This document shows, piece after piece, positions 1 to 64,000 of a stretch of DNA of 64,000 bases. The stretch is from assembly GCF_042242105.1 (NCBI RefSeq), contig NC_092012.1, forward strand, positions 8,809,470-8,873,469. Direction: 5' to 3'. The number at the start of each line of letters is the position of its first letter. The first letter of the stretch is position 1. This DNA comes from Pempheris klunzingeri (taxonomy: Eukaryota; Chordata; Actinopteri; Acropomatiformes; Pempheridae). The notes beneath the pieces are model-generated. The model did no database searches, was not told the origin of the DNA, and was given only the letters and a program-made list of their open reading frames with translations. The position numbers and the translations under genes were made by a program.

Positions 1-780
1 TATGCATGTATATGCATGTATAACCCACAATGTACAGCATATACAGCATGCTTAGAGTTGTATTTGAGTAATAAAACTGTATTCAAACTACAAAATATAT
101 CATTTAGAATTTGTAGCTACAGTGGAGGTTTAGTGTTACAGGGTTATTAAACTTAAAAAAGTTCATCAGAGTGAGCAAAAAACTGTTCTCATGCCCATTT
201 TTTAAAAATACATCAGCATATTATTATTCTATTTGATTATTAGTTATTTTGTGTAAAATAAATAAAATATTGAAACCCTTTCCATATTTCCATATGCTGC
301 TGCTAAGTTGCCCCCTTTGTCTGCCAGATTTCTGCATTCATTGGTTTTCCTAGAAAAATCTCTCTTTGGGCTGCAACCTCCTTGTCTGTGTACCTAAATG
401 TGTCAAAACCAAAATCAGCACGACCTGCGCTCTCACAATATTCTGCGGACGTTGGTCCCCGGAGTAAGAACTAAATCAGGAAAAAAAAAAAAAGCCTTAA
501 AATATGCTTTCCCTTCCTCCAGAAATAATGCACACGAGGGCCTGAAACTGTCAGAGCTCATCACACTTTTAGAGGATCCAGGAAATAATACTCTTGGTCA
601 ATGTGATTGTTTGTTTAAATGTCATTGCCTAATAGTTATGGAAATTGTACCTGGTGTGGTAAATATTAACAGCATATTATGTTAGTGGTCTGTTGTTGTA
701 AAAGTGTCAATGCTGCATTCTTGGCAGGAAAAGAGATTTTAATCTCAGTGAGACTTTTTACCTGGTTGAATAAAGGTAAT
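1..780. other. AT-rich upstream region, no gene seen
   Basis: This stretch upstream of leo1 shows no reading frame with recognisable protein sequence. The one open frame of about 95 codons (near 398-685) runs through a poly-A tract and resembles no family I know. The first 20 bases are two copies of a 10-base unit. I read it as intergenic. Confidence 0.5.
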
Positions 781-964
781 GTATATATTCTATATTGTGA
801 GTAGAGCAGTTCCTGACTTTACCCTGGTGTGTAGCGCCTCCTGGCGGCTCTTAACACTCGTTACACCAGCATGTCCGCCGCAGCTTGAACTCGGAAACAA
901 AAGCTTTCTGCTCAAAGGCAGATCATTTCCTGTAAGGTCACATTTTACTACAGTTTTGGAAGAA
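781..964 (+). promoter_or_regulatory. leo1: Probable leo1 promoter / 5' UTR with a tiny upstream ORF
   Basis: The 180 bases before the leo1 start codon are richer in G+C than the flanks. They contain an upstream ATG at 871 whose frame (Met-Ser-Ala-Ala-Ala) stops at 886-888, about 76 bases before the leo1 ATG at 965. If transcription starts upstream of 871, this would be a minimal upstream ORF. No TATA box is obvious. The transcription start is inferred, not seen. Confidence 0.35.
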
Positions 965-11599
<10,635 letters not shown>

Positions 11600-37485: not shown

Positions 37486-46361
<8,876 letters not shown>

Positions 46362-52890: not shown

Positions 52891-55800
52891 TAGTAAAGGA
52901 CAGGTTCACATATTTCTGAAGTCTGCCCATATGAACACTGAATCAGGCTTTGATTTGATCTGAACCCATGAGGCTTAGTTAGTTTGATTAGAAATAGCGT
53001 CTGTATTTCCACTGAGAGGACTGATTTAGGAAGAAACAATTGATTTGTCTACCTCACACTGCTGACATCTTGTACACTAGTAAAACATTTCCATTTATAC
53101 ATGGAGGTCTCAAACTGAGATAAAATCAACACTGAAGTATTACTGAATCTGCATGTATGTGAATGAAATAACGTGTGTGGCCGTGTTTCTTCCCACGCGC
53201 ATAACGAGACGGTAGCTTCCAAACAGCTGTCTGACAACAGTGAAGCAACAGTTTTCTACGTCTAACGCATCCACCGAAGAAGTCGGTTTCATCATTTTTC
53301 TTACTGGTCTTCTTCCCATTACAGAAAAACTGAAGAGCTCCACACATTTTGTTTTGATTGTCGTTACTGAGACCTGCGTTTTTCACCATCAGCTCAGATG
53401 TACAGCTCAGATGCAAAGTGTTTTCAGAAGATCATTTAAGTGGTGCTGCACTGCAAAAGATCGCCTACATGTGTATTACTTGACACTCCTACATGAAATA
53501 AAATCATCACCTTTGTGTTTTCTTATTCATTGCGTGGGTGACACGAACTGGCCACTTCACCATAAAGCACATGCTGTAACGGTGGATACTGGATTATGTT
53601 TTCTGTGGGTAAATCAATAGATCTTATATTAGAAAGTGTAGGAAAGCTCCAAGGGGGCACTGAAGGAGAGAAGATGGCCTTTGATATTAATGGATTAACA
53701 TATTTTGAGCTTGAAAGTGGATTTGATTTATGCAAAAGAGCTTCCAGAGCCCTTGAGGTAATTGTGTGATTTTTCCACCCCCAATGACTGAAAGCTGGAT
53801 ATAGTCACGATGCCCCGGTGCTGCAGCATATACACATTCGCTGTGGAACAAAACACTCACCAAAAGACTGCTACTGAGAGACTGTTATGGTCTGTTCATA
53901 TATTTGTTTAGTCTTGCTTGTGCATGAAAGAAATTTACAATGTTAGCGTCATATCATTCTGTGACGAGGCCTAAAATGTTATTTTTCTACGGGTGAAAAT
54001 TATGTTGTTTTTTTTTTGCTTACAATGGATGACACCTTTTTTTTTTTTCTTTTTTTTTTTTTTAAAAGGATTTTCACTTTCTTTACTATTCGAGACACCT
54101 GCTGTCTATCCTCTTTTAGGGGTTTCAGGTTAAAAAGCCAGATGAGCTTTAGTCTAATGATAGCGATTTGTATTCATTTTGATCACAAGCAGGCAAAACC
54201 ATGCCGAGAAATGCTTCTTGTTCTGCGTTTCACAGTCAAACAGTGTGTGTGCTGAATCCAAAATGAAATCTTCCCACAGATATTTCTGTTCCCATATGGC
54301 AAATGTTGGATCAAGTCTGTAGAGGCAAAATTGTGTTTTGTCAAAACACAGAATGCTGGCTGAATAATTTGGCTGAAATTTACCAGACTGCATTTGTTAA
54401 ACTGGTCTTGCCCGAGCTGAAAGAGAAACAAGAATTATTATTGTTGTTGTTGATGCTAATGCACCTGAAACCATGAAATTCAAACCCGCAGATTAACATC
54501 TGCATCCCCCGTAGTCCGACATGCATCATCTCCTGGTAGAACGAGTGCGGGAAGCAGCTGTTTAGATAAGCTGCTGAGTTCAGTTTACAAGTAAGCATAT
54601 AGCTTCTAGTATTCAGTGCAGTGCTTTTTTTTTTCTGCTATTTGCATAAGTGAGAGTTTGAGGATTTACATGTTAAATTTTAAACCTGCGAATGTTTGTT
54701 TAACTGGAACATATTCCATTGAAAGCGGGAAGAACTCCAGAGCTGTGACAGCCAGTGACGGAGTATCCAACACGACTGTCGCCCTGGCCAAGAGAAGGAT
54801 ATCTAATTAGATATCCACATGGCATGAAGCTCGATGGCTTATTATAAGTACCAAACTTTGAGCAATCTATGACTCTTTATTAATGATTGACCATTCGTGC
54901 CTGCAGACTTTATGGTTAAGTGAGAATCTTTTAAAATGATTTACCAACATTTTTTTTTTTTTTCTTTAACTTGATGGCGTATTTCTATGAGGATTAGCAT
55001 TAACTAATAGTAGGAGGCAACATCAAGTCTAAATCCTCAGGTCTGAAGGGACGTCACCATTACTTTCCTCTGCTGTAGTGCAGAGCAGATCTGACAATGA
55101 CTAAACAGCCCCCCCTTGTGGAGAATCTACCAACGAGTGCAAGTCCAGTTCTTGGGCTGATGTCAGTTTGTTTGTGCGGAAAGGAAACTCTACTGAGATT
55201 CATCTTTGAAAGATGCCAGTTGTTTTCTGGTGTGTTCAGAACAAATAAAAAGCCATCCTTTTATTTACATTTAGATCACTGATGATGCCTCGAGGAATAA
55301 GCTTAAGGGTAGCAGCACGCCAGCACCCAGCAAGACAAGACCTGCCAGTACCCCAAAGAAATAGGCAAATCAGTGTAATCTAAATGCAGATTTGGGTGAC
55401 ACAGGTCCCACTGGGACAATTACTCACCCTACACTGCAGAAACCCGGATACAATCTCTGATACGACACCTTTGGCTTGTTTGTGCATTCCACAAAACACA
55501 TTTATCAGCACTTGTGGGCGGGAAAGCCAGCGAGGGGCTCTCGTCCTTGTTGCAGCACTGGCGGCTCGCGCTGGCTGGCCTTGACACCTGCATGGAGAGG
55601 GGTGGGATTCTGGGGGACTTTACAAGAACCACATGGCTGATGGCGCCGCTGACTTGACGGTGGTAATATCACTGAGGAGCCCAGTACAAGAGAGCTGGCT
55701 ATTCCAGAGAGGGCAGAAAAAAAAAAGAGTAAAATGAAAATAATAAAGAGAAAAGTTAAAGAATGTTAATAAATGTTGCTTAATGTGTGTGTGTAAGATT

Positions 55801-56284
55801 GTTTAGACCTCTAATACTGACTGATAGCTACACAATGAAGCAAACTGGTGACATACAGTGTTTTACAGTGTCTCTTTAGCTGCTGAATAGGTTGCAAAAT
55901 GTCAAGTCAGACCCTGAAGTCACACACAAGAGGACAAAAGCACATCATGGGAGCTGCAATGCGGTCAAAGTGCTGTGTTTACAGGTTGCTAAGACACAGT
56001 TGTCAAGCTACAGCGGATGCCTGGTGATTTACCTCAACAGCAGATTCTCATGGGTGTCAGAGTGTGTTTCACCTGAGAGCAGATCAGCACACACACATAT
56101 GTGCATGTACAGTACACACTGTTTGTCACCCTATAGGATAAGAGAGAAACTTAGAGCGCACTGTGTTCTGTGCCTTTGTCATCAAACTAAACAGGCTACA
56201 GGGAGGACTTTGAGGCACATGGTAGCTGGGTTTTTACTGGCTTATCTCTTGCCATGTCATAGTGGTTTCTGCAGAGAGGCTAAG

Positions 56285-59200
56285 ATGAAGGCCAAAGCTT
56301 TGTCAGTGAGGGAGTGCACCTGGATGTCAGAGGAGTGCCACCTAGTGGGTGAGCTGCATGGAGAGTCACAGAGGGACGGGCTGTGTTTACCAAACATATT
56401 CAGGTCGAAAAAGGTGAAGCCGCTCACCAGGATTCAGACTGGACCCACTTACCACGTCTACTACACGGCCAGAGAGCTCCTGCTGGAGGTGCTGGACAGA
56501 GGAGCCATCCGGGAGCTGATCAGGAGAGCTGCTGGTGCGAAGCCAGGCGCTAACCGTCCGTCATACAGCCAGAGCAGAGAGCAGAGTGCAGATCTCTCAG
56601 AGGGGGAGTATGCTGAGGCGTTAACATGGTTCTCTATAGTCCTACAGAGCGGTCTGTCTGTAGGAGAGAACTGCAGCTTTGGCTCTGAGTTGACCCTGAA
56701 ACTGGACGGGTGGCAGGCTGTCCTCAAGAGAAACAGCTTCCAGACCAGCCTCCTGTCTCTGACCAGACTGGAGGATGGAGACAAGCTGGAAGCCCTTTCA
56801 GCTTTCTGTAACCACTTAACCAAGCGCTACCAGGCTTTATACACACCTGGTTACAATCTGGCTGTGAAGAAATACAGACTTTCCTACCAGCAGAGTCCTT
56901 GCGCTCTCCATCTTGCCCTCCTCTGTGACACGACCTCAGGGTTCATCTGCAGCATGTATCTGTACTGTCCAGACCAACTCCAGAGGCAGAGCAGGAAACC
57001 TGTCATCGAGCAGGTGGTTGGACACCTGCTGAGGCCTTTCTGCAGTCACAGACATGTGGTTCAGCTGGACAGCTCTGCTTGGATGGAGGGCAGACTCACA
57101 GACATCTTCTCTGGCTTAGGGATCAACATTGATTTTGTTCCGACTGTTAAAAGGGCATCGCCACCGGTCATCCAGCAAACGTCCGAGGACTCACTGTCTC
57201 AATTTGTAGCCCACCTGCAGGGCTGGACCGGACCTGCTCTGTTTCCCCCGTTGGACCTGAAAGGAGCAGTGTTAGATGTGTTTCTCCCTGGACTCTGGGC
57301 GACGCTACACATCATCTGCATCAACACGTTTATGCTCCACACCCTGCAGAGCCAGGGCTTGGGCAGGCAGGTCCACCTGACAGACTTCACCAGGACTCTG
57401 GCCTCTCAGCTGGCCGTGGACAGCAGCGTCACTGTGCCTGTTCTGCCACAGCTCAACAGCTGTTCATACCATGAGACAAGTTTAACAAATCATTCAAAGC
57501 AAAGGTTAGTCTTACTGTTCGTTCTAGTGTTTAAATTAATGTTGTGACTTTATAAAATTATGATATGATGTGCAACACTGCACAGGAATAAGAATGGAAG
57601 TGAAGAATGATTTCTCTTCCATCACTGGCCTTGCAGGGCAAATGCTATTAGCTCTGGTCAGGTGATGGCAAATGAGAAACAGGACTGCAGCGCTGCAGTG
57701 AGGCTGCAGAGATGGAACAGAGCAGGAGTTTGTGGTTTGGACAACTCTGGCAACTCCTGCTACTTAAATGCTGTGCTACAGTGTCTGTGTTGCACCGTGC
57801 CCCTCGTGGAGCACCTCCTTAACCAAGACAATCGCAAACAGCTGGCAAGGTAAGACCCCCCACCCCCATCTCTCTCTCTCTCTTTCTGACTCCCTTGAAT
57901 GTTGAGTCAAGCTTTCCCAGTGGCTTAACCTCCACTCGTGCAGGTCTAAGTGCCGGGTGGCAGAGGTGTTTGTCCGCCTGCTGGAGGAGATGTGGCTGGG
58001 AAGGAGCTCCAGCTGTGCTCCTGTGGAGGCCAGGTCTGTGCTGTGCTCCATCCTCCCCCAGTTCGACAACTACTCCCAGCATGACGCCCAGGAGCTGCTG
58101 CTGTTTCTCCTCAACGCGCTGCACGACGACGTCAAAAAGGTGCAGCGACACACGATCACATCTGAACGATCGCTCACCACCTCTCTGCGACAAATCGTTA
58201 CACCTACAGAGAGTGAATCTGTATCTGTGTGTGTGCATGTTGTGTTGTGTTACTAGGTTGCAAAGCGCCAGATGCGTTCTTCAATACGACAGCAGAGACA
58301 AGACAAGAACAGACACTGTGCCACCGCAGTCGGGGAATCCACCATTGTCTCAAACCTGTTTGAGGGCCAGCTGAGCTACACGACCCTCTGCATGCTCTGC
58401 GATCACCAGGCGTACAACACACAGACCTTCACTGTGCTGTCACTGCCGATTCCAACGGATGTCATTAAGTGCTCCATTCAGGTACCTTGTATGGTCCGGA
58501 CAGTATGCATGTCATGTTTAGTTATCTTATCTGTGCTTTCTCATAGTTCTGTCTCTGTGTTGAGCAGGACTGCCTGTCGCTGTTCTTCGAGCAGACTATC
58601 CTGACCGGGGGAGAGCAGATGCTGTGTTCTGCATGTGGACTGAGGGGAGAAACGGCAGCACTGACTTGTTTGGACAAACCTCCCGAAATTCTCATATTGC
58701 ACCTGAAAAGGTGAGCAAAAACATAACACGATCTGTTAAGGCATCACTGTGGAGTAAGGGTGGATGTTTGCTTGAACAAATGCACGAGATTTAAAACTTG
58801 AATCATCACTGATAAAACATTCTCACCTAAAAGGTCCATTTAGTTGCTGGTCTGGGGCTTTCGATCAAATCACATGATCTTCGTAAGCAGATGAACTTTG
58901 CCCAGTAGCCATAGAGATGAAGATGTTCAGAGAAAGTAATTTAAGGACTTTTATACCATGTTGGCTTAATGTTTAGTTTTACGATAATGCTACATGAATG
59001 CTAATGATTCATGTCTACAGTATAATTCTGCTTGAGAGACTCAGGCCTGATCTGATCAGTGCTAAACTCCTATTTTACCTTGAAATAGTCTGACTTTGGT
59101 CTTTATTTACGCATTCACAAAAGATTTAGAAGTATCATGACGACATTATGCAAGCTTGGACATGTATTAGAATAATTGGAGGAACCGACTTTGATAAACT

Positions 59201-60050
59201 AAAACAGTTCAGTTCAAAAGGTCAGAGAAGAACTGACAGATGGGAAAGCTGAGAGAAAGACTATAAAAAGCTAATTTGATGACATTTCAGTTACGGATGG
59301 TTTAACTGAGTCAACATTCATTAAGTTATGGCACATTAAATGAAAAGCTCTCAAACTAAACTGTATTAATAATGAACCACAGACCTTCACAAACCATTGA
59401 ATATAGTTGTGCGCCAAATCAAGAAGAGTCATTCTTTATGCTCTAACATGCGTTATGTGTTCTAATATTAAGTGCTACAGCATCCAAACACCCTGGGCAT
59501 GCTGGACAGTTCGTGTTGTGGGTATTAGTAGCTGTAAACCAATAATACCTGTGAATTTCTTCCCCTGTGCAGGTTTGGTTGTAAGGGGAAGAACCCAGTA
59601 AAACTGAGGACTAATGTTGTGTTCTCAACGAAGATCGATCTCACCCAGTTTCTATCCAGTCCACTACAGAACACCTCATATTCTTCATACCGCTTGTATG
59701 CTGTTGTGGTGAGTTAAAACACACACAGCTAAATTAAATATTGACTCATTTTACAAAATATCTTTTGGCTGCTAGTTCGGCGACAGTAAACTGTATCAGT
59801 AAAGTTACAATCAGACTAATTAAGATGAATGTATATGGAAACTGACCCCTCCCTTCTCTAGAACCATACAGGTCATCTCAACATGGGTCACTACACAGCT
59901 CTGTGCCACAACGCCCTGACCCGGACCTGGCACTGTTTTGACGACTCAGCGGTCAGAGAGGTGCGGGACAGCCTTGTGCAATCTCCAAATGCCTACATGC
60001 TGCTCTACAGCCGCAAACCTTTTCAAAAGCCAAAGATTATTGGACTCTGA
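56285..60050 (+). CDS. usp50: piggyBac transposase-like / USP50-like deubiquitinase fusion
   Basis: Predicted exons are 56285-57504, 57637-57849, 57944-58139, 58257-58481, 58568-58710, 59573-59708 and 59862-60050. All have GT/AG borders, phases agree, and 2322 nt give 773 aa. Residues 58-395 are piggyBac transposase-like. Residues 437-770 are a USP-family deubiquitinase, which removes ubiquitin from proteins: Cys box with [18 protein letters not shown] (catalytic Cys448), [15 protein letters not shown], zinc-finger CMLC and CSAC pairs, LHLKRFG, His box GHYTALC (His721) and CFDD (Asp738/739). The USP part most resembles USP50 (EMWLG, VLSLPIP, YAVVNH), and the position tail to tail with usp8 supports that. 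Human USP50 (about 339 aa) has no transposase part. I chose ATG 56285 because a good acceptor (ttctgcag, 56274) lies just upstream and the text before it is not protein-like; the frame stays open back to 55892. The alternative is two separate genes, the USP one starting at ATG 57665. Confidence 0.8.
56450..57480 (+). mobile_element. Domesticated piggyBac transposase domain (inactive-looking)
   Basis: Within the fusion, residues 61-85 ([21 protein letters not shown]) match the piggyBac N-terminal helix block that precedes the DDD core. [14 protein letters not shown] (187-200) aligns with the strand carrying the first catalytic Asp, normally (I/V)DE, but has Lys-Lys at 195-196. LCDTTSGF at 213-220 and HVVQLDSS with Asp262 match the strands leading to the second Asp, usually [21 protein letters not shown] (341-354) and FTRTLASQL match the family's C-terminal helices. 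The region of the third Asp is shortened and the C-terminal cysteine-rich finger is absent, with the USP domain following instead. Family membership rests on pattern recognition; I judge DNA cleavage activity lost. No terminal inverted repeats or TTAA duplication were seen around the exon. Confidence 0.75.
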
Positions 60051-61856
60051 GCTCTCCCAGCAGGCCAAACCCAGGATGGGACTGAGTTTTCACCGTCAAC
60101 TGTCCAACAATGTTACTGCACTGATGATAAATTAGCGGAGTACTCCTTTAAAGTGTATTTGAATCTGCTCCTCGTCAGTGGACGTTTTTCTGCTGTTAAG
60201 ATTAGCAGCATTAACTCGTGTGCCATCATTACAGCCCCCCGTTTGTGTGCACTGTTTATACACCATGTTCTCTTATAACCTCAGGAATAATAAGACTAGA
60301 AGAATAAGAGCAGGGCTTCATTCAGTCAATCACTCTTTTGCCGGTATGTATAATTTTATACCGTATATCCCAAAACAGTCATTCAGACACAAGAACTAAT
60401 TTGAAGCAGTTTTAATAAATAGTCATATGAGTTGTTTGAGGTTAATATAATCGTTATATCTGAAAGATTTTTTTTTTTTTTTAGAGTATTAAGAAATGAA
60501 ATCAACATGTACAAGTAAAAAGAAAACAGATTATGATCTCATGCTAGGCAATAAAACTGTACTCAGGAGGAGTCAAATCCTGCCACCTCAGATCTCTGGT
60601 CCATTCAGAAAAAAAAATCTCAGTATACTTTGTGCTTGCTCTTGTCAGTCAGTCGGTCAGTCGGTAAAGTCAGGCAGCAAATGTTGACTCACACACTCGT
60701 ATAAGTGAATAAAGTCAATTTCCCATGTTTTCATATTCTCCCGGGTCAGTACTGAACACAGAAATCCAATCAGGTAATCAAACCTCCAGCCTCTTAGAAA
60801 TATTTCAAAACCAGCATCACTGGTATAAGCCATGAAGTTATTCCAGTGATTTTTTCCTCTAAATAGTTTTTTTTTTTTTAGAATAATAATGTAGAGAGTT
60901 AATTATGATTAACAGAATAAATTCTACAGCAAACTTTATAGAAGCAGGTAGGTTCTTCTGTCACTGTCTGGACCATGCAGGACAGACAAGATCTCAGCAT
61001 CAGTATCGCTTCAAAGAATTCTGAGTCGAGAATTAATGTTTGCTGTTAAACAACGTGTCCTACATAGACAACTTAAATCGATTGCATATCGTGTAAGTGC
61101 AAAGAAATGTGGCTAATATGAACAAGCAACAATCTCAGTTCCCTCTCCTCTTTAGGAGTAATGCAAAATTCAACACTCACAGTCTCTTCCATCCTCTTTA
61201 AGAGCACGTTAAACATCAGAAGGCTATAGAGTTAAACCCCTAAAACACGTGGTTTGTCTTAATGAATATGGTGATATTAGGATGGCTGCTACTTTTATGA
61301 AAAAAAAAAAAAAAAAAAAACAATTTGGTCACTTAACAGATAAACACCTTGCCCTTGAGTATTTACATTTTTGAATGTGCAACATCAGCATTGGTAAGTA
61401 TGTACATGCCATCTAACTGTTAACCCTGGTGTATGCACAGTACAAGCTGAAGATCAGTTCTGCGATTCGCCCGGCCACACTGAGTGCAACAGAAATGACA
61501 GTGAAGAAGCTGTCAGCCCTACAACATACAACCATCACTAGTCGGAGTAAAAGGAGCATCTGTTTAGTCTCTAGATTATCAGTAATATGAACAGACGGCA
61601 TGTTTTAACAGGTATAGGGTCCTCTAGTAGCTGAAGCATTGCACTGTGTGCCTGCACCTTTCTCCCATCTGCGACAGACAGGGATCCCACAGCCACTCGC
61701 TCGAGTATGTCCTCGCGTGCACATACGCGACTAGTTAATCGCCAACTACGTGCACCGGGATCCTCAGAGCTGTGATTTTAAAAAGGAAAAGACAACCTCT
61801 AGGCTTGAGCGTCGCTGCCCTGGTGTAGTGTTTTCTCTGCATGTCCTACGGCTCCA
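60051..61856. other. Convergent 3' region between the USP50-like gene and usp8
   Basis: This holds the 3' UTRs of both genes. For the + strand gene, AATAAA occurs at 60414-60419 and again at 60708-60713. No clear AATAAA was found on the minus strand for usp8. A poly-A run of about 20 bases lies at 61301-61320 and T-rich runs at about 60467 and 60868. No further gene is seen. Confidence 0.6.
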
Positions 61857-63136
61857 TCACAGGCTTGAGTAAAACAGGATGTAGGCTGCAGAGGACTTGA
61901 CGGAGGAGGTGGAGATATCGGACACCTCGTGGTCATCAAACTTGTACCAGCGCTGCTTGAGGGCGTTCTTACAGTAGGCTGTGTAATGGCCGCCATCTAA
62001 ACCCCCGTAATGGTTCTGGTGGTGGAAATGAAGATGGTTAACAGTTAGATAATAATTATATTTAATTGTTACTTTGAATGTGTAAGAAATCCACTTCACA
62101 ACAGAATAAATTGCAGTTCTACTTACAGAAACTCCATAAAGGCTGTATCTCTTCAGGCTCTGTTTAGGTCCAATGACGTACTGGCTCAGGTCCAGATTGT
62201 CTAGAGAGAAGTCTACAGACGTCTGCAGCTTCTGCTTCCATCGACCCTCATAGGAGAATCTACAGAAATTACACCCATGCAAGAAAAATGAGCATGAATG
62301 TGGTATCCAGCTTAAAATTCCCCCAATTTTGGGGAAGTTTCTAAATCTTACTTCCCAAGCAGTCAAAGTGAGTACTACTCAGTAAACGTGAAATTAAAAG
62401 AAATAGTATGCAAAGCGTTTGGTCTTGGCCTACATCATTTTAAATGCAAAGATCACTACAGACCGTTTTAAGTGCACCAGGAGAATGGGTGGGACTTTCC
62501 AGATCTCGAGCTTCTTGGTGGAATCTCTGTGCGCCTTGCAGTGTCTGCAGAACACCTTGTTGTTGTCTGTAAGCTTTTCTTCCTTGGAGAACAGCCTCAG
62601 ACAATCCTGCCGAGAAGCAGCAAGCATTTCAATTCAAGTATTACGATGCAAAAAATGTGTTTGTCAAGAGAGAGAAATTCCAAGTCATTTGATGGTTGTC
62701 AAAGTCTAAGTCTCCAAGTAAAAATGTCCTTATCAATGAATATAAAGGAAATAAAGGAAAGTGAAGACTCGTGCTTTTATACTTTGAGTGGCTGTGCGTG
62801 TCTGTAAATTAAATAGTCCAAGTGTAATCTTTCTGAAACGGTTAAAAACAAGAAACTCCTGACAAACACTTCAGTGGACATGTCTAACATCTGACCGACC
62901 TGTAGGGAGCACTTGCTGGTGGAGGCGAGAGGCAGGGACAGGTACATAAAGGTCTCAAATGTCCGTGACTTGCGATGGCAGGTCAGACACTGCACGGTGG
63001 ACTTGAACTGCCCCTGGAACAGCGCTACAATGATGGACTCATTCAACAGCTTGTGTTTACTCCAGGCCAGGTCAGCCGCTGTCTGATCATCCAGATGGTC
63101 GTTTTCCTCCTCCTTGTACCGCTTCCTATTGTCCGC
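61857..63136 (-). CDS. usp8: USP8 (UBPY), C-terminal four coding exons, partial
   Basis: USP8 is an endosomal deubiquitinase that acts on receptors and the ESCRT-0 complex. Minus-strand exons in order are 63136-62900, 62606-62464, 62259-62127 and 62015-61857, with consistent phases (0, 2, 0), encoding the last 223 residues. They start at ADNRKRYKEEENDHLDDQ and include LNESIIVALFQGQFKSTVQC, zinc-finger pairs CLTC and CRHC, PPILLVHLKR, FSYEGRWKQKLQTSVDF, LDLSQYVIGPK, the His box GGLDGGHYTAYC and the acidic residue in KFDDHEVSDIS. Similarity to human USP8 is very high. The protein stops at LFYSSL, whereas human continues about nine residues. The catalytic Cys exon and everything N-terminal lie beyond position 64000. 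It converges with the USP50-like gene. Confidence 0.97.
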
Positions 63137-64000
63137 CTGACACCAGAGAAGGGACAATAACACCATTGGTGCGCAGGTACATCTGAAGCTTAAAATGTTA
63201 GCAAAACCTGCCTTCACGATCCCACTAAAGCTCAATGATTGATGGCATATTCAGAATTTAAGGGTCCTAATTATAATATTGGAGTTAGCTCTAAAAAAAC
63301 TGAACTCATCGAGGGATACAGACTGATTACTAAGTGATGAAACTTTGTATTCAACACCTCTCACATCTTTTTCATTTTCATTAGCATGCAGTTCAGCCAG
63401 TTCACTCTCATTATGATGGCAGGAAGATATGAAAGGCAGGTTAACACTTGCTAATTAATATCTCATCAATTAAACTGACTGATTTATCAATTAGCCTGGA
63501 CAGACAGAGTGGACTGGGACTGGGCCAGCCTGATGGCAGACAGGTCTGAACATCACACAAAAGGGACGTGATGAGATGGAGTGTGTATGATGAGAAATGC
63601 ACATCATCAATTGGTACAACCTAATTGGCACCTCATCCTTTAAACAGAGAGTAAAATGGGGTGAATGTACTACTGCAGCTCAACCCCAGGTGGAGACAGT
63701 ATCACAGTGTATCCAAGCTGTCTGTTGTTTTGACAACCATATTCTCTGACAGCTTAACTGTGGTTATGAAATGTCTTTTTAACAATTCAGCTATTCCTTC
63801 TGCCCATTCAAATGCACATGAAGCAAGTAAACTCAGTCGACACAGGCAATGAGGCATGTCTTGGGTCTACATGCAGAGAGATTCTGACAGAGCATCAGAC
63901 CAGACAGATGCAGACACGCCACACTCACACTGCTGCAGGAGGACCAAGGACACACAGCTATTTACTTACTCTCTAATTTGCCATCAAAATGAAACCCGGT
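63137..64000 (-). other. usp8: usp8 intron, running off the window
   Basis: No reading frame here matches the USP8 segment that should precede ADNRKRY (the Cys box and QQDSQELL region), so I read all of it as intron. A good minus-strand acceptor (gtgtcag) abuts the exon at 63136. Confidence 0.7.

Follow-up and report, generated by a model that had tools for sequence, protein, structure and literature searches.

We characterized a predicted seven-exon gene in a 64,000-nucleotide stretch of the genome of the fish Pempheris klunzingeri (contig NC_092012.1, positions 8,809,470 to 8,873,469), hereafter the window, in whose coordinates all positions are given unless a contig is named. In this gene, a first exon that resembles piggyBac transposases is followed in frame by the six exons of a USP50-like deubiquitinase. 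We consider it likely, judging from the sequence, that this is a host–transposase fusion gene, in which an old piggyBac domain forms the N-terminal half of a 773-amino-acid deubiquitinase and now serves as a protein–protein module. An open frame, domain matches on both sides of the junction, a match in phase, an intron held in common with USP8 and, by alignment, the loss of catalytic residues are all present in the sequence, and we infer transcription, translation as a single chain, selection, and what the N-terminal module does.

Gene structure and the junction between transposase and protease exons

When joined, the seven exons on the forward strand (56285–60050) come to 2322 nucleotides, which amounts to 773 codons and a stop codon with no stop inside. 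Exon 1 is 1220 nucleotides long and has the 3' boundary GCAAAG|gttagt, exon 2 is preceded by ccttgcag, and AG from the former with G from the latter makes Arg-407. The frame that contains exon 1 extends for 555 codons between stops and is the longest stop-free frame of the window. A chance open frame was rejected, as 30 first-order Markov simulations of 64 kilobases each, run with the dinucleotide composition of exon 1 itself, gave no stop-free frame of more than 340 codons. Moreover, G+C content by codon position is alike in exon 1 (0.542/0.433/0.648) and in the USP exons (0.530/0.413/0.639).

Exons 2–7 match the UCH domain PF00443 (E 5.1e-59). The USP Cys box GNSCYLN (at residue 448), the His box MGHYTA (at 721), and the Asp of the FDD motif (about 738) are all there, the protease part also contains the CxxC pairs CMLC and CSAC, and by its sequence the deubiquitinase is probably active. 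Its best relative among solved structures is USP8 (211.5 bits). The catalytic half of the fish's own USP8 lies tail-to-tail with the gene on the opposite strand (61857–65891, an end that lies past the window), and 132 of 350 aligned residues are identical between the two proteases. Our searches of the own genome covered 646 Mb and scored only the best candidates. In these, the protease part was found once, as six self-exons (87–99% by exon, including flanks), and the weaker matches among 25 were USP8 exons and other USP-like pieces. In the human locus, USP50 stands beside USP8, and the USP50-like name that we use rests on this arrangement together with the sequence. A zebrafish gene-loss list of 2009 includes USP50 (PMC2809080). 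Elsewhere in the genome, at C341:23258–23908, a USP-like match (28% identical, five stops) runs across several exon boundaries without introns, which suggests an old USP-gene retrocopy.

The six introns of the chain and the last six introns of USP8 have the phases 2,2,0,0,2,0 in the same order, and five of the six chain introns fall at residues aligned with USP8 introns. The first shared intron precedes the catalytic Cys by 41 residues in the chain and by 44 in USP8, splitting an Arg codon in the former and a Lys codon in the latter; its exact register is not independent, because the alignment of the two proteins was begun at that junction. By its sequence, exon 2 seems to be an inherited internal exon with its own acceptor, and, given the phase-2 intron shared with USP8, it therefore seems to need an upstream donor exon of phase 2. 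Exon 1 offers a phase-2 donor 132 nucleotides upstream. In a splice-matrix scan, this donor, AAG|gttagt at 57504, ranked second among the 74 GT sites between 56285 and 57636, with a score of 7.6 (known sites scored 1.0 to 10.2 under leave-one-out). The acceptor at 57637 scored 3.3, which makes it the best AG in 57508–57759 and places it inside the leave-one-out range of -2.0 to 15.2. The runner-up acceptor, at 57662, was rejected, as it gives an immediate stop.

We propose that an old piggyBac transposase came to sit directly 5' of the exons that encode the catalytic part of a USP8-related protease, where its donor at 57504 would feed the protease's inherited phase-2 acceptor at 57637. The predicted product would be one chain of 773 amino acids, with a transposase-derived N-terminal half joined to the deubiquitinase, and the N-terminal domain would act as a folded protein–protein module in dimer formation, choice of partner or substrate, or localisation.

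The piggyBac relation of exon 1 and the state of its domain

The 406-amino-acid protein encoded by exon 1 matches a single Pfam family, PF13843 (DDE_Tnp_1_7), at 29.1 bits (E 8e-7; gathering score 22.4). The match spans residues 110–264 and profile positions 38–214 of 349, and a near-exact reversal of the protein gave no PF13843 match. An HHalign comparison of exon 1 with eight piggyBac proteins of the own genome scored 35.3 (E 0.00096, probability 22%), and its controls reached 22.9 for the best of 60 shuffles, 12.4 for the exact reversal, and 15.0 for the USP part. With PGBD5 added to the eight proteins, the score was 39.7 (E 0.00023, probability 44%), compared with 23.6 for the best of 100 shuffles and 14.1 for the USP part. 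A forced whole-length alignment (probability 14%) ran from N-terminal helices through RNase H strands to a C-terminal block in order, and in it the C-terminal block of exon 1 aligned opposite VDVAVVNAWFLYRM of the transposases. A search of NCBIfam led nowhere. Judged from these alignments, the relation of exon 1 to piggyBac is real but remote, and its chief support comes from the broad Pfam profile and the block order.

An earlier sequence-only reading of this DNA had proposed the boundaries of exon 1, its donor, the acceptor with the split Arg codon, and a seven-exon open chain divisible by three, and all of these were recovered when the chain was re-derived. That reading had also called exon 1 piggyBac-like and named DDE_Tnp_1_7 as the profile to search, and the match lies above the cut-off, though plainer searches missed it. 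The in-phase splice of transposase to host exons holds at sequence level, and here the intron before exon 2 that is common to USP8 adds support which the earlier reading did not have.

A DDD motif, together with a Cys-rich domain at the C terminus, has been described for piggyBac transposases (PMC9499001). The catalytic Asp triad is invariant in all five own-genome transposases that we aligned, and exon 1 has, by alignment, lost two of the three residues expected of an active transposase: it has VKK in place of the VDE that contains Asp 1, Asp 2 persists in LDSS, and QGWT stands where the transposases have GGVD with Asp 3. A MAFFT alignment put the Asp 3 column elsewhere than the forced profile alignment did, also without an Asp in exon 1. 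The Asp 1 and Asp 2 positions are 67 residues apart in exon 1 versus 78–79 in the three of five transposases for which the pattern count was usable (79, 78, and 79; the motif was mislocated or missed in the other two, which were dropped). The interval between Asp 2 and the Asp 3 position is 53 residues in exon 1 versus 111–114 in four of the five, the fifth value (228) having been dropped as a mislocated motif. Given these spacings, exon 1 seems to lack much of the insertion region as well as part of the first RNase H strands. Exon 1 also terminates before the Cys-rich tail, a region seen in four of the five aligned transposases, and the fifth (L001) entered this comparison only as an incomplete piece. 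From its residues, the transposase part is probably unable to transpose.

The core of exon 1 (residues 69–380) has a net charge of +1 over 312 residues, or +0.3 per 100 amino acids, as compared with +2.5 to +7.1 in the five own-genome transposases and +5.4 in PGBD5; the whole exon encodes 39 Lys+Arg and 36 Asp+Glu. DNA binding is disfavoured because the core is charge-neutral and the Cys-rich tail is missing, and exon 1 would thus be a poor candidate DNA binder. The sequence-only reading had supposed that the transposase part might supply DNA, chromatin, or partner binding to the protease. Its domain identities, its in-phase splice, and its placing of a degenerate transposase upstream of a protease stand, and binding to DNA or chromatin is the part that these values weaken. 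We favour protein contact over DNA or chromatin binding because catalytic residues, much of the insertion region, the Cys-rich tail, and the positive charge have been lost, and a protein-binding or dimer-forming N-terminal module appears likelier than a DNA binder. A simple nuclear-signal pattern is matched by two short basic stretches of exon 1 (KKVK at residue 42, KKYR at residue 195), and such a signal in exon 1 is possible.

The region 54500–62000 contains 89 inverted-repeat pairs. Among the 25 longest, those near exon 1 are either A- or T-rich or a single pair of 25 nucleotides at 76%, the far arm of which (58970–58994) sits inside a USP intron. TTAA occurs four times in the 1000 nucleotides before exon 1 and six times in the 1000 nucleotides after it, and because it is so frequent around the exon it carries no information on target duplication.

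We next considered copy number and age. The own genome has at least 122 PF13843 matches, and among the 122 listed many have several stops and many others have none. A DNA search with exon 1 found only itself among the best candidates scored, and a protein search, scored in the same way, found itself and one chance-level piece (E 6.4). Exon 1 is probably old, because neither search found a similar copy. Under neutral drift, its 406 codons would be expected to have gathered 4.7 stops at 0.1 substitutions per site and 14 at 0.3, whereas none is observed (probabilities of no stop, 9e-3 and 8e-7, respectively). A human PGBD5 query matched transposons of the own genome with E values down to 1e-20, besides its ortholog. 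This ortholog is a multi-exon gene at C12:8321005–8332853 and is 58–90% identical per exon to the query. Since PGBD5 still finds transposons and exon 1 finds only itself, exon 1 is by these searches the more divergent of the two, being either older or faster evolving. The domestication of PGBD5 has been dated to more than 500 million years ago (PMC3902484). Exon 1 shows the marks of a domesticated gene, namely a single copy among the best candidates scored, an intact frame, and lost mobility, the last as judged from its residues. Relatives of exon 1 were sought in viral and prokaryote contigs, where 3 and 20 pattern matches yielded none that was confirmed, and the same was true of 44 and 40 pattern matches to piggyBac relatives collected there for a folding alignment. 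A live or recent transposon was rejected as an explanation of exon 1, given that no second copy was detected among the best candidates scored and that catalytic Asp residues are lost by alignment. Two other loci of this genome, L003 and L007, carry near-alike open piggyBac transposase frames of 509 and 594 codons with all three Asp, which suggests that their family was fairly recently active.

Table 1. Features of the predicted fusion gene and its surroundings (window coordinates).
Feature	Position	Strand	Basis or remark
Candidate acceptor tttctgcag (exon would begin 56275), fits upstream non-coding exon	56265..56274	+	score 6.7
Exon 1, 406-amino-acid degenerate piggyBac (DDE_Tnp_1_7) domain	56285..57504	+	ATG with A at -3; phase 2 end; PF13843 match
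Catalytic Asp 1 site, approximate; VKK (residues 194-196) vs VDE of transposases	56864..56872	+	alignment
Catalytic Asp 2 site, approximate; Asp-262 retained, LDSS vs FDN-	57065..57070	+	alignment
Catalytic Asp 3 site, approximate; LQGWTG (residues 311-316) vs HMGGVD, Asp lost	57215..57232	+	forced whole-length profile alignment
Intron 1, 132 nucleotides, phase 2, without AATAAA	57505..57636	+	splice-site scoring; phase common to USP8
Exon 2, USP domain start, Cys box GNSCYLN (Cys-448 of chain)	57637..57849	+	domain match
Exon 3, USP domain	57944..58139	+	intron phases as in USP8
Exon 4, USP domain	58257..58481	+	intron phases as in USP8
Exon 5, USP domain	58568..58710	+	intron phases as in USP8
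Exon 6, USP domain	59573..59708	+	intron phases as in USP8
Exon 7, USP domain; His box MGHYTA (His-721), FDD (Asp near 738), stop TGA	59862..60050	+	domain match
Likely polyadenylation signal, first AATAAA past stop	60414..60419	+	sequence scan
USP8 catalytic half, tail-to-tail neighbour, runs beyond window	61857..64000	-	intron-position comparator

The candidate acceptor 10 nucleotides 5' of the ATG is a fair one, and six other upstream AGs outscore it. Elsewhere in the window, exons at 37486–46361 resemble those of MAPK6 (ERK3), and LEO1-like acidic open reading frames lie at about 1–11000.

Weighing the fusion against its alternatives

Several results weigh against a piggyBac–deubiquitinase fusion. 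With regard to the identity of exon 1, all HHalign probabilities against piggyBac are below 50%, and a HMMER profile of the eight transposases gives exon 1 only 1.3 bits, whereas the best of 1000 decoys reached 3.6 and four scored higher than exon 1. Searches with phmmer found no significant match between exon 1 and the eight own-genome transposases and no piggyBac match among PDB sequences. Exon 1 is also not among the 122 listed own-genome PF13843 matches (116 of 507 candidates scored), and its AlphaFold model, made from the single sequence, has a mean predicted local distance difference test (pLDDT) score of 36.9 and is unusable for recognizing an RNase H-like fold. That a second copy was not detected does not prove exon 1 to be unique, because the searches score best candidates only, and selection on exon 1 is deduced solely from its intact frame in one genome. 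With regard to the junction, the splice matrix was trained on only 11 introns of two genes. The acceptor at 57637 scores below all 11 known sites when these are scored without leave-one-out (7.6 to 18.8), is fourth lowest of 12 under leave-one-out, and is only 17th among the 137 AGs in 56285–57759. Finally, intron 1 contains both a stop (57545–57547) and a weak signal, TATAAA at 57551, so that a short transcript may end there.

Such a transcript would fit a locus with alternative products, in which retention of intron 1 yields a solo piggyBac-like protein beside the spliced fusion, and possibly a USP-only form. This explanation overlaps with the fusion gene that we favour, and we regard it as rather unlikely. 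Read-through from 57503 to 57547 adds a short hydrophobic tail after residue 406, followed by the stop and, just after it, TATAAA; by its sequence, this could be a retained-intron isoform with a membrane-like tail. The read-through frame, the hydrophobic tail, and the weak polyadenylation-like signal speak for alternative products, and CSB-PGBD3 provides a precedent (PMC3902484). However, so short a tail may be due to chance.

An improbable alternative is that there are two genes here, a single-exon domesticated piggyBac gene whose end lies within intron 1 and a separate USP50 with its first exon elsewhere. The frame of exon 1 does stay open for 14 codons beyond residue 406 before it reaches a stop near TATAAA. 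A remote 5' exon could serve USP50, and an in-frame ATG lies ten codons into exon 2 (Met-417). On the other hand, the donor at 57504 is among the best two of 74 GTs and has the correct phase, the acceptor phase of exon 2 is common to USP8, and an intron of 132 nucleotides without AATAAA, the first of which lies beyond the USP stop, is hardly long enough to hold both the 3' end of one gene and the promoter of another.

We find it very unlikely that exon 1 is a decaying, functionless transposon fossil that is open and in phase by luck. With at least 122 PF13843 matches in the genome, a chance insertion upstream of a gene would be cheap. However, the lack of a similar copy makes exon 1 probably old, yet its 406 codons hold no stop where 4.7 or 14 would be expected, and many of the 122 listed PF13843 matches (many others excepted) carry several. 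That exon 1 arose from PGBD5 as a retrocopy, or is otherwise related to it, and is not an independent capture is hardly credible, and a PGBD5 retrocopy was rejected: both show loss of catalytic aspartates (for PGBD5, PMC3902484) and exon 1 lacks the introns that PGBD5 has, as expected of a retrocopy, but PGBD5 is a distinct multi-exon gene on contig C12, its pairwise similarity to exon 1 is not significant (-1.3 bits), and, as exon 1 is equally unlike the eight transposases, that last result leaves kinship with PGBD5 unsupported rather than disproved.

Comparison with known systems and biological meaning

Both USP8 and USP50 have a UCH domain as the chain does, and USP8, which lies tail-to-tail with it, has the same six intron phases as well. 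USP8 carries its own long N-terminal part instead of a piggyBac exon, the N-terminal part of human USP50 is short, and to our knowledge neither USP8 nor human USP50 has a transposase domain. In SETMAR, the host enzyme is N-terminal. Like the chain, SETMAR fuses a transposase to a host enzyme (mariner and a SET methyltransferase), but its transposase is of a different family and retains site-specific DNA binding (PMC3902484, PMC12062965). The primate CSB-PGBD3 is closer in kind, as a host protein and a piggyBac transposase are joined by splicing (PMC3459987, PMC3902484). There, however, the transposase is C-terminal and is provided by an alternative 3' exon (PMC3902484), whereas in the chain it is N-terminal and its partner is a protease. 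PGBD3 has a single D-to-N change and still binds the piggyBac end (PMC3902484), in contrast to exon 1 with its two lost Asp residues and lost Cys-rich tail. Site-specific DNA binding is described as persisting in both CSB-PGBD3 and SETMAR (PMC3902484).

PGBD5, like exon 1, is an old, catalytically degenerate piggyBac domain of vertebrates (PMC3902484). It differs from exon 1 in being multi-exon, free of any protease fusion, and basic overall, with no significant pairwise similarity between the two. PGBD5 is reported to show no binding to DNA or chromatin (PMC3902484). Its inertness is disputed, because human PGBD5 has been reported to induce transposition (PMC4625184) and PGBD5 to interact with piggyBac-like elements (PMC12324416). 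By analogy, the protein-contact role that we propose for exon 1 would have a parallel in PGBD5.

In one open literature collection, with annotation databases outside its scope, we found no work that pairs USP50 with piggyBac; fish gene models may already contain the fusion. A search of the literature for piggyBac, deubiquitinase, and domesticated transposase turned up only work on programmed DNA elimination.

Fusion of a host protein to a transposase is thus a known kind of event, and what is new here is that the N-terminal half of a deubiquitinase is piggyBac-related and has apparently exchanged DNA contacts for protein contacts. Our fuller proposal, put forward tentatively, is that a catalytically dead, uncharged piggyBac domain may have been captured deep in fish history, and that selection may have retained it as a protein-binding unit by which the protease is aimed or assembled. 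If true, the fish USP50 would have gained a targeting module, which mammalian USP50 is not known to have. It would also mean that a transposase fold can be retained for protein contacts after the loss of its chemistry, Cys-rich tail, and positive charge, and this gene would be among the oldest piggyBac domestications of vertebrates, and one in which a transposase fold that once bound DNA came to bind protein instead.

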